A DNA stretch of 64,000 nucleotides from Xanthobacter autotrophicus (lineage in GTDB: Bacteria; Pseudomonadota; Alphaproteobacteria; Rhizobiales; Xanthobacteraceae): assembly GCF_005871085.1 (NCBI RefSeq), contig NZ_VAUP01000028.1, positions 248,001 through 312,000 on the forward strand. Direction: 5' to 3'. A model generated the notes under the pieces. The model had not been told where the DNA came from, did no database searches, and saw nothing but the letters and a program-made list of their open reading frames with translations. The stretch's first letter is position 1, and the number at the start of each line of letters is the position of its first letter. This document shows, one piece after another, positions 28,586 through 31,276 of this stretch. A program made the position numbers and the translations under genes.

Positions 28586-28879
28586 ATGGCCGAAGCAGCG
28601 AAGGCAACAAGCGCCAAGTCGGGCCAGAGCACCGGACCGGCGGCGGGGGTGGACAAGCTCAGCTTCGAGCAGGCTTTGGCGGAGCTGGAGGCCATCGTCG
28701 GCAACCTTGAGCGGGGCAGCGTGCCGCTGGAGGAATCCATCGCCATGTATGAGCGGGGCGAGGCGCTGAAGATGCGCTGCGATACGCTGCTGAAGGCAGC
28801 GGAAGCCCGCGTCGAGACCATCACCCGCGACGCCGACGGCCGCCCCTCCGGCACCGCGCCGTTGGACGCGGACGGGTAG
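28586..28879 (+). CDS. xseB: Exodeoxyribonuclease VII small subunit
   Basis: A 97-residue helical protein with the family core [20 protein letters not shown] and [18 protein letters not shown]. XseB packs on the large subunit XseA to form the single-strand exonuclease VII. The ATG at 28586 follows GGAGG at a 5-base distance. A low-complexity N-terminal extension rich in Ala and Ser precedes the core. xseA is not in the window. In many alphaproteobacteria xseB lies close to dxs; here dxs is almost 5 kb downstream. Confidence 0.93.
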
Positions 28880-28990: not shown

Positions 28991-29581
28991 TCAATAGAGG
29001 CCGGGGATGACGCGCTTGGTGCGCTTCTCATAAGCCTCGTATTCGGCGCCGAAGGCTTCGCGCATCATCTTTTCCTCCCGCCCCACCCGGAAGAAGAACA
29101 GGGTGCCGAAGCCCACAAGCCCCGCCGGGCCGGCGATCAGGTTTGGCAAAAGCAGCGCCTGCGCCAGCGCCCACAGGAAGAAGGCGGAATACATGGGGTG
29201 GCGCACCCGCTCGTAGACGCCGGAGGTGATGAGCTTGTGCTTGTCCTTGATCTCCAGCGTCACCGACCAGTTGCGCCCGAGCTGGCGATGGGTGCGCCAG
29301 AACAGCCATAGCGCCGCGAGGAACACCAACACCCCCGCCACCACCTGCGCCACCGCCGGCACGTAGGAGGCGAAGCGCGGGAAGGAGGTGAGGGCGTAGA
29401 TGGCCGGCATTACCCCGAGCCCGAGGGTCGAGATGGTGAGCAGCGTCATGTCGCGGGCGGTGCGGTGGCGCGCGTCGGCCACCTGCTGGCGTCGCGCCTT
29501 GCGCTGGAAGGGGATGCGCAGCACGTACCAGGAGGCGACGCCGACCGCCCAGGCGATCTTGGCGAAGAGGACGAGGCTCAT
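28991..29581 (-). CDS. Isoprenylcysteine carboxyl methyltransferase (ICMT/PEMT)-family membrane protein
   Basis: A 196-residue membrane protein with four to five hydrophobic segments and the family core ITSGVYERVRHPMYSAFFLW followed by GREEKMMREAFGAEYEAYEK. Family members methylate lipid-linked or small hydrophobic substrates using S-adenosylmethionine at the membrane. Bacteria rarely have prenylated CAAX proteins, so the substrate is unknown. Its start codon directly abuts the stop of the upstream hydrolase gene, which suggests a two-gene operon. Confidence 0.82.
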   Translation of the reverse strand: MSLVLFAKIAWAVGVASWYVLRIPFQRKARRQQVADARHRTARDMTLLTISTLGLGVMPAIYALTSFPRFASYVPAVAQVVAGVLVFLAALWLFWRTHRQLGRNWSVTLEIKDKHKLITSGVYERVRHPMYSAFFLWALAQALLLPNLIAGPAGLVGFGTLFFFRVGREEKMMREAFGAEYEAYEKRTKRVIPGLY

Positions 29582-30901
29582 TCAGGGCTCGCTTGGTGAG
29601 GAAGGGGCATGGTCGGGAAGGGCCATCAGGCGCCCGCTCGCGTCGCGGACGGTCGGCAGGGGGGTGCCGTCGGGCGCCATATAGGCACAAAGGGCATGGA
29701 GGTGGGCGGCCAGCACGTCGAATGCGAACGGGCCGCATACATAGGCGTAGAAATCGTGCGGGGCGCGGATGTCGCTCGCCAGGAAGCACTGGCAGTGGCG
29801 CCGCATGACATCGAAGAAGAAGCGCCGGTAGGTGGCCGCCGAGACCATGTCGCGCACCGGCACATGCCGCAGCAGCGGGCGCTGCGCGAAATCCCCCACC
29901 GCCAGCTGCGGCTCGGCAAAGGTTGCGCGCTCGAGGGTCACCGGATTGAGCTTGTAGAAGGAGACGATGTCGTCCCGCGACTGCACCTCCACCCAGCCGA
30001 TCTGAGGGGCATCCGCCACCCGCCGCGCCGCCGCCCGGAGCCGCGCGCCGGCCGGATGCAGCGCGAACTTCGCCGTGGTGCTGCCGAGGGTGAGGATGCG
30101 CACGCGAACCTTTGTGCCGAACTCCGGGTCCTGATCGAGCGCTGCGGCCACCGCCGACACCGCATGCATGGCGCCCAGGCTGTGCCCGGCGATCACGATC
30201 TCGTCCACGCCGTCCCGCGCGGCATCCGCCGCCACGGCGCGCAGCCGCTCGGCGAAGGCCGCGACCCGCGCATCCACATCGGGATGGCGGCCATGGGCGA
30301 AATTCACGGAAAATTCCGCGAGGTCGAGGGATTGCCTCAGGCGAAAGCGCCGCCCCGGCCAACGCATCAGTAGCAGGCCGGTCGCGAGGGTGGTCACCAC
30401 CCCGCACAGCCCCGCCGCCACGGGGCCGAGATGAGGCGCCAACCCGTGCGCTGCCCCGAAGCCCACTGCCGCCGCCGCCGCCCAGAAGGCGAAAAGCAGC
30501 AGATAGGTGAACAGGAAGAAGAAGCCGTAACGCCGGCTGGTGCGGAAATAGGCGAAAAGCGTGCCGCTGGTCACCATGTCGATGATCGCGCGCACGGAAC
30601 CGCGCAGGTGGGAGCGCACCGGCCGCCCCATGTCGGCGCGGGCAAGGTCGTCCCAGGCCAGGATCTCGAAGGTGGTTGAGGTGTGCCAGCCCGGGCCCTC
30701 CGCCTCGGACTGCCAGAGCGCGCCGGTGGGTATCTGGACCAGGCCGGCGTCGCGGCAGCGTGTCGCCGCCCGCCAGACCGTGCCGAAACGCTTCAGCTCG
30801 CGCAGGAAGATGCGATGGTGGCCTTCCACCGTCATGGGATCGTACCCGGCCACGAAGAACACGTGGCGCCGGCCGACGCGCGTTGCTGGCACCTCCCGCA
30901 T
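29582..30901 (-). CDS. Membrane-associated alpha/beta-hydrolase-like protein
   Basis: A 439-residue protein (from the ATG at 30901; the frame stays open to 31030). The nucleophile elbow GHSLG is at 239-243 in DEIVIAGHSLGAMHAVS. An N-terminal VFFVAGYDPM strand resembles the first strand of lipase folds. Two membrane segments (126-150 and 157-180) interrupt the hydrolase core, so the enzyme is probably embedded in the inner membrane. Candidate acid and His residues lie in SRDDIVSFYK and in the His-rich C-terminal third, but I cannot assign them. The TGA abuts the ATG of the ICMT-like gene. I do not recognise a characterised family. Confidence 0.7.
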   Translation of the reverse strand: MREVPATRVGRRHVFFVAGYDPMTVEGHHRIFLRELKRFGTVWRAATRCRDAGLVQIPTGALWQSEAEGPGWHTSTTFEILAWDDLARADMGRPVRSHLRGSVRAIIDMVTSGTLFAYFRTSRRYGFFFLFTYLLLFAFWAAAAAVGFGAAHGLAPHLGPVAAGLCGVVTTLATGLLLMRWPGRRFRLRQSLDLAEFSVNFAHGRHPDVDARVAAFAERLRAVAADAARDGVDEIVIAGHSLGAMHAVSAVAAALDQDPEFGTKVRVRILTLGSTTAKFALHPAGARLRAAARRVADAPQIGWVEVQSRDDIVSFYKLNPVTLERATFAEPQLAVGDFAQRPLLRHVPVRDMVSAATYRRFFFDVMRRHCQCFLASDIRAPHDFYAYVCGPFAFDVLAAHLHALCAYMAPDGTPLPTVRDASGRLMALPDHAPSSPSEP

Positions 30902-31276
30902 GGGGGCGCCTTCTAGCGAAAACCCGCACGGATGGCCAGCGCCGCCCCTTTCGAGACGGTTTAGAACCCGTGCCGAGCCCATTTTGCCCCGAGGGCGGCT
31001 TGGGAAAGGATCGCGCCAGGGTTGAAGCAACCTATCCGTAAAGCGGCCGATAATCTCAAGAAAACACCGCTATTTTAAGTATATAGCGGCGAGATCGAGA
31101 CAGGTGGCTCGCTGCGCGGCAGAAGCTAAGGCGGGGCAGTACGAGAGCAAAAGGTTGCGTGATGGCATTTGCACACGTTCACAGAATACCATACTGGCCG
31201 GCAGTAGCGCTTTCAGCGCCAAGACCGTTTCGCGTTACTCGTGCAATCCCGTGATGTTCGCGTCGGACCTGCTGTC
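30902..31276. other. A/T-rich intergenic region with a palindrome
   Basis: This region separates the divergent hydrolase and glycosyltransferase genes and is markedly richer in A/T than its surroundings. CCGCTAT (31067-31073) and ATAGCGG (31083-31089) form a perfect inverted repeat around TTTAAGTAT. No gene is supported here; the glycosyltransferase start may lie as early as the GTG at 31241. Confidence 0.55.

Follow-up and report, generated by a model that had tools for sequence, protein, structure and literature searches.

A conserved gene pair for a predicted membrane-anchored hydrolase and an ICMT-family methyltransferase in Xanthobacter, a candidate module for methyl-capped lipids

What could a serine hydrolase and a small membrane methyltransferase do together that keeps their genes side by side? 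The question is raised by a gene pair of Xanthobacter autotrophicus, located on a stretch of 64,000 nucleotides (the window). The initial annotation, made from the sequence, had stated that the stop and start codons of the two genes touch, and in the window sequence the TGA of the hydrolase gene indeed abuts the ATG of the methyltransferase gene.

29582..30901, minus strand: CDS of the hydrolase P0001, first gene of the pair, 439 residues; predicted membrane-anchored alpha/beta serine hydrolase (open reading frame, fold model, relatives)
28991..29581, minus strand: CDS of the methyltransferase P0002, second gene of the pair, 196 residues; ICMT-family integral membrane protein (Pfam, NCBIfam, PDB)
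29579..29584, minus strand: junction of the hydrolase TGA (29582-29584) and the methyltransferase ATG (29579-29581), gap 0

Judged by position, the pair is a lone transcription unit. A convergent gene, read as xseB, ends at 28879 (plus strand) beyond the methyltransferase end, and a divergent GT9 gene begins at 31241 (plus strand) upstream of the hydrolase; the glycosyltransferases on that side of the window are divergent and of the GT9 and GT2 types (Pfam). The dxs gene of the window lies on the opposite strand from the pair. Both xseB and dxs are named by our reading of their sequences. The methyltransferases closest to P0002 come from a genome of the same genus (96%) and then from X. autotrophicus/X. 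oligotrophicus.

Linkage of the two genes was assessed across genomes. Among 61 genomes (its own and 60 relatives), the hydrolase was found in 32 (E≤1e-3) and the methyltransferase in 29 (E≤1e-50). In 28 of these 29 the strong methyltransferase adjoins the hydrolase, the lone exception being G023, where the hydrolase is on a different contig; both genes are present in 14/14 genomes of the genus. A scan of named genomes, which used the methyltransferase alignment A2 alone, yielded 363 matches, and the counts given below for the best 80 of these lean to near relatives. The hydrolase, recognized by its profile, lies directly upstream and on the same strand in 71 of these 80 named loci. Overlaps of 1 or 4 bp account for 51 of the 71 junctions (49 at −4 and 2 at −1), as located by a script that favoured a start codon at −4 to +1 if one existed; the other distances are +15 (eight junctions), +7, +10, +16 and +171 (two each) and +12, +14, +37 and +925 (one each). 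In a Hyphomicrobiales set (247 genomes requested at ≥95% completeness), the hydrolase occurs in 45 (E≤1e-15), the methyltransferase in 26 (E≤1e-25) and both in 21, which corresponds to a Fisher p of 1.0e-13 by genome and 4.9e-6 by genus. The two genes adjoin for 20 of the 26 strong methyltransferases; they are both present but apart in G575, and the methyltransferase occurs without the hydrolase in G476, G485, G578, G450 and G480. The distances of the two proteins correlate over 69 loci with an r of 0.82 (0/999 permutations as high), a value that is raised by shared ancestry too. The association of the pair is far from chance. Rare co-occurrence in other genomes had been named beforehand as an argument against a joint role, and it was not what we found (71/80 adjacent in the best 80 of 363, 20/26 and 28/29); co-occurrence, overlapping junctions, correlated divergence and the many genomic settings described below all speak for a functional linkage.

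The hydrolase is a protein without a name in the current family libraries. None of the Pfam and NCBIfam models matched P0001 above cut-off (Lipase_3, PF01764, reached 15.2 bits versus 22), which rules out a known lipase of these libraries, and a sequence search of the PDB gave no related solved structure (best E 1). Structure prediction had been proposed in the initial annotation for the 439-residue protein, and an AlphaFold model was built on 62 sequences (that of the window and 61 methyltransferase-linked homologues; alignment A3). With a mean pLDDT of 95.0 and a pTM of 0.93, it predicts an alpha/beta hydrolase with a membrane hairpin: helices 123-158 and 160-180 are inserted into the alpha/beta core, after its first strands and before the strand that leads to the nucleophile.

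30362..30535, minus strand: two-helix membrane hairpin, P0001 residues 123-180 (model and hydropathy)
30173..30187, minus strand: nucleophile elbow GHSLG, residues 239-243, with the presumed catalytic Ser241 (model and conservation)
29969..29971, minus strand: presumed catalytic Asp311 (kept in 112/112 unique homologues)
29795..29797, minus strand: presumed catalytic His369 (kept in 112/112 unique homologues)

Hydropathy peaks at residues 126-144 and 161-179, and the segment is Arg-rich on both sides (RTSRR and RWPGRRFRLR). Because of these flanks and the positive-inside rule, the catalytic parts of P0001 would be expected on the cytoplasmic face, where SAM is. The two membrane segments that had been noticed earlier are thus borne out by hydropathy and model, but it is the fold that they split and not, as had been written, the GHSLG motif itself. 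In the model, strand 234-240, Ser241 and helix 242-257 form the nucleophile elbow, and the presumed triad has the order nucleophile, acid, base (Ser-Asp-His) of alpha/beta hydrolases. Loss of the catalytic Ser in homologues, also named in advance as a ground for doubt, is confined to one sequence: of the 112 unique homologues (84 with a methyltransferase nearby and 28 without), 111 retain Ser241 and one has Cys in its place. This Cys variant (GHCLG; L075:9355-10632, from the same genome as L018) retains the Asp and His. Comparison of the model with known structures gave weak hydrolase matches only with Foldseek (best E 1.2e-2), whereas a second structure aligner returned 333 of 997 chains at Z≥8, nearly all of the rows listed being hydrolases; they include lipases, esterases, thioesterases and a GPI inositol-deacylase. 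The top fold neighbour is Nir2 (9c37; Z 11.7, rmsd 4.9, 258 aligned), together with PlaB and PGAP1/Bst1 (both Z 10.6; 6zth, rmsd 3.8, 204 aligned, and 8k9r, rmsd 4.3, 221 aligned) and lysosomal PLA2 (4x92; Z 9.8, rmsd 3.7, 186 aligned). All four share the P0001 fold, but at identities as low as 9-15%. A kinship with PlaB or PGAP1 in particular was dropped, as rows within 1 unit of Z are tied and the Foldseek E is 1.2e-2 at best. A viral fold library gave weak lipase-like matches only. Overall, model and conservation support P0001 as a membrane-bound alpha/beta serine hydrolase.

For P0002, the initial annotation of an ICMT-family membrane methyltransferase holds, the protein scoring above the cut-offs of Pfam ICMT (PF04140; 58.5 bits versus a gathering cut-off of 24) and of NCBIfam NF040696, protein-S-isoprenylcysteine O-methyltransferase (268.7 bits versus 160); RefSeq gives the latter name to the homologues. 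It also passes Pfam PEMT (48.5 bits versus 25), and it matches the model of the lipid A 1-phosphate methyltransferase LmtA weakly (27.3 bits versus a cut-off of 325). The nearest solved relative is Ma-ICMT of Methanosarcina acetivorans (PDB 4a2n; E 1.3e-30, nearly the whole length aligned). The eukaryotic ICMT structures 5v7p and 5vg9 match at E about 5e-9; eukaryotic ICMT, a carboxyl methyltransferase of the same Pfam family as P0002, differs in that it acts on prenylated proteins. Enzymes of the SrsB/BpsB type are phenolic-lipid methyltransferases.

29189..29203, minus strand: motif RHPMY of the methyltransferase, residues 127-131 (invariant in 19 aligned homologues, alignment A2)
29072..29077, minus strand: Glu169-Glu170 of the methyltransferase (invariant in 19 aligned homologues, alignment A2)

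Within these motifs, His128 aligns with His122 of RhlM, a SAM ligand, and Glu169 with Glu162, the alignment being made via an RhlM-like protein (L224); the RhlM paper gives His122 and Glu162 as the SAM-contacting residues (PMC11069360). From these similarities P0002 is probably a carboxyl methyltransferase of the ICMT family, whose members act on amphiphiles. ICMT-type enzymes can methylate other groups, which weighs against the carboxylate reading. According to the same paper, the family has thousands of members in bacteria, almost none of them with an established acceptor, and the acceptor of Ma-ICMT was not determined (PMC11069360).

The strongest hint to function is an exchange of partners beside the methyltransferase, which is new here. 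Among the best 80 of 363 matches, an E2-like acyltransferase gene (Pfam 2-oxoacid_dh) is present in all nine named methyltransferase loci without the hydrolase and in none of the 71 hydrolase loci. In seven of the nine (Afipia, Rhodopseudomonas, Pseudolabrys and others) it is accompanied by genes for an AMP ligase and for an acyl carrier protein; the other two (L159 and L182) have the secreted protein c19 described below. When all fetched methyltransferases above 120 bits in the loci examined were taken (114 rows, 105 of them different), 94 were found with the hydrolase only, 12 with the E2-like gene only, 0 with both and 8 with neither (L067, L198, L200-L203, L221 and L222); the profile used for the E2-like gene was itself derived from the loci that lack the hydrolase. 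The methyltransferase tree, a quick search in which several long branches are unsure, requires at least four changes between the two partners, and its starred branches force at least three changes of the E2 label. Because the hydrolase is replaced by an E2-like protein, often with an AMP ligase and acyl carrier protein, the slot beside the methyltransferase looks like one that handles acyl groups, that is, an acyl-transfer slot.

Some of these loci have a composition of their own. A plasmid cassette of Ensifer adhaerens (L220:4187-8256) consists of an L,D-transpeptidase, a hypothetical secreted protein, the methyltransferase, the E2-like acyltransferase (annotated as 2-oxo acid dehydrogenase subunit E2) and an SDR; the hypothetical protein is read as c19 by its place and its Pfam-less sequence. 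In R. leguminosarum (L221) the set comprises a transpeptidase, a hypothetical protein and the methyltransferase only. A weaker methyltransferase subgroup (L200-L202, E about 1e-57), with neither hydrolase nor E2-like gene, has a flanking gene that reads as tRNA adenosine deaminase-like.

The pair itself recurs in different surroundings. It lies between xseB and dxs or GT genes in Xanthobacter, Ancylobacter and Azorhizobium, next to an acpXL-like very-long-chain fatty acid cluster in L169 and L186 (2 of the best 80 of 363), beside lut-type genes in L155, L166, L181 and L190, and on plasmids of Pararhizobium and Bradyrhizobium; in RefSeq the Pararhizobium trio is named lipase, protein-S-isoprenylcysteine O-methyltransferase and lipase. 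Over the named loci (best 80 of 363), xseB was found in 34 and dxs in 24. A link to isoprenoid synthesis via dxs was dropped because the pair persists without dxs, which in the window is moreover on the opposite strand. A link to very-long-chain fatty acids or lipid A, seen in only the two named loci above, was kept as a hint. The pair is divergent to the acpXL-like cluster in L169 and L186 and also in L079 and L085, and in one MAG a GHSMG hydrolase-like gene, c47, is situated between hydrolase and methyltransferase (L079:6162-7019, the same place as L169:5058-5986). A trio of hydrolase, methyltransferase and c7 is bordered by lut-like and GlcD-like genes in the MAG loci L155, L166, L181 and L190.

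The hydrolase was also found on its own, 28 of the 112 unique sequences being without the methyltransferase. It stands alone between xseB and dxs in L204-L206, and directly before a cytochrome P450 in L105-L111, which belong to other alphaproteobacterial families; in three of the latter loci a patatin-like phospholipase precedes it. The hydrolase does not need this methyltransferase and serves a separate function, a point against its being simply the eraser of the ester formed by the methyltransferase.

RhlA is an alpha/beta-fold acyl enzyme, and RhlA and RhlM of Paraburkholderia are like our pair in that the gene of such an enzyme adjoins that of an ICMT-family membrane methyltransferase. RhlM is encoded downstream of rhlA, and knockouts assign to it the formation of rhamnolipid methyl esters (PMC11069360). 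RhlM methylates a lipid carboxylate, and the His and Glu that serve as SAM ligands are common to RhlM and P0002 (His128, Glu169). However, the RhlM-like L224 protein (Burkholderia stagnalis) shares 29% identity with P0002 and falls short of the NF040696 cut-off (77.8 bits versus 160), which rules out P0002 as an RhlM orthologue. P0001 is likewise ruled out as a relative of RhlA, since the hydrolase profile did not match the RhlA-like L224 protein. RhlM genes sit in a cluster with rhlA and rhlB, whereas an rhlB-like gene is absent from the window pair. From the sequences compared, RhlA-RhlM would be an analogue of the pair, working alike but not of the same families. In the open-licence PMC papers no literature on this gene pair was found; the earlier statement that no such system has been described stands for these two subfamilies within that literature, but not for the arrangement as such, given the published RhlA-RhlM analogue (PMC11069360). 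The L224 record itself, an unannotated plasmid of Burkholderia stagnalis (L224:3763-6601), carries by our reading a gene cluster for rhamnolipid methyl esters in the order rhlA-rhlM-rhlB.

Sequence comparisons and models document the two protein classes, the hairpin, the conserved triad and SAM-site residues, the coupled genes, their linkage and the E2-like replacement. On these grounds we propose, with somewhat less than even confidence, that the two enzymes form an inner-membrane module for making or finishing a lipid whose carboxylate is capped by a methyl group, through acyl transfer or release and then carboxyl methylation. Most likely, the two enzymes act in turn on one inner-membrane lipid. 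The hydrolase, with its presumed triad Ser241-Asp311-His369, would be pinned to the membrane by the two-helix hairpin with the catalytic domain in the cytoplasm, and would remove the acyl part of an ester or thioester. This acyl part would be released or passed on to an acceptor molecule, and the result would be an amphiphile whose carboxylate is free, to be methylated with SAM by the methyltransferase in the same membrane. The shared substrate, the order of the steps and the carboxylate as methyl acceptor are the parts that we infer.

An unlikely alternative is that the hydrolase acts as a deacylase, trimming a phospholipid or a lipid A-like lipid, and that the methyltransferase modifies a phosphate, amine or hydroxyl of the head group. 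The PEMT score of P0002 (48.5 versus 25), the weak LmtA match (27.3 versus 325), the presence of PlaB and lysosomal phospholipase A2 among the fold neighbours of the hydrolase and the two loci beside the acpXL-like cluster (L169 and L186, of the best 80 of 363) are consistent with this, but the top-scoring family of P0002 is a carboxyl methyltransferase group (NF040696, 268.7 bits), the nearest functional precedent methylates a carboxylate, and the acyl carrier protein system that stands in for the hydrolase in some loci suggests acyl chemistry rather than trimming. We hold it to be quite unlikely that the two enzymes are writer and eraser, the methyltransferase forming a methyl ester and the hydrolase removing it as a methylesterase, like ICMT and ICME of plants. 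A serine hydrolase adjoining a carboxyl methyltransferase fits such a couple, plant ICMEs are described as demethylating enzymes (PMC3017835), and tight coupling would hold both enzymes in balance; the comparison of P0001 with ICME was made through the family libraries, in which P0001 has no Pfam or NCBIfam match above cut-off. A pure eraser would be expected to be lost with its writer rather than swapped for an acyltransferase, whereas 20 of the 114 methyltransferases are without hydrolase, 12 of these having the acyltransferase instead, and the hydrolase in turn occurs without methyltransferase (28/112 unique sequences).

The two genes might also share no more than a transcript, encoding housekeeping enzymes of the membrane that have nothing to do with each other and whose genes stayed adjacent through operon inertia or cotransfer. 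Each gene is found alone in some genomes, and related genomes share neighbours anyway (xseB in 34/80 and dxs in 24/80 of the best 80 of 363), but we rate this as very unlikely: the pair persists where all other neighbours differ (xseB/dxs, acpXL-like, lut, plasmids), and hydrolase and E2-like gene are never together with one methyltransferase (0/114). Finally, P0002 could be a true protein-S-isoprenylcysteine O-methyltransferase and the hydrolase its methylesterase, as suggested by the NF040696 equivalog match and by the RefSeq names of the homologues. This seems barely credible. The partners are acyl enzymes, and to our knowledge protein prenylation is not known in these bacteria, which counts against it. 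The name was given by similarity, and the RhlM paper states that for the archaeal structure the acceptor was not determined (PMC11069360).

The proposal of an acyl-lipid module also takes account of the satellite genes c7, a secreted hydrolase, and c19, a papain-like/PLAAT-like protein, which appear to be acyl-type as well; both are predicted to be secreted from their N-termini. Among the named loci (best 80 of 363), the GHSLG hydrolase c7 occurs in 16, c19 in 12 and either of them in 25 of 80. The c19 members tested have no match in Pfam (e.g. L185:10597-11298), and His67 and Asn155-Cys156 are invariant in 13 sequences. The c19 model (mean pLDDT 72, core mostly >80) matches TseH (Z 10.9, rmsd 4.1, 135 aligned), PLAAT4 (7.2), CLN5 (6.5) and HRASLS3/PLAAT3 (5.8). 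These four are papain-like enzymes, and two of them are phospholipase/acyltransferases.

A wider reading, speculative and on balance doubtful, is that Hyphomicrobiales contain undescribed methyl-ester envelope lipids, made by a modular ICMT-type methyltransferase with an exchangeable acyl partner (the hairpin alpha/beta enzyme or the E2-like protein), in some cases fed by acyl carrier protein and AMP ligase and followed by periplasmic processing by a hydrolase or PLAAT-like protein; the hydrolase would then found a new family of lipid acyltransferases and not be a lipase. The pair gives one bacterial ICMT branch a constant partner, and the chemistry hinted at by the E2/acyl carrier protein replacement narrows down the candidates to acyl lipids that carry a free carboxylate. 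With a role of this kind, a conserved serine-hydrolase family not named in current libraries would gain a function, and the label 'protein-S-isoprenylcysteine O-methyltransferase' in the databases would be corrected.

In the genome of the window, c19 was not found, in a search that had no positive control. One homologue of c7 (36%, E 1e-32) is encoded elsewhere in this genome (L227:5967-6791; G000, contig C32, about 224592-225143), where it adjoins genes read as lutA/lutB of lactate utilisation.
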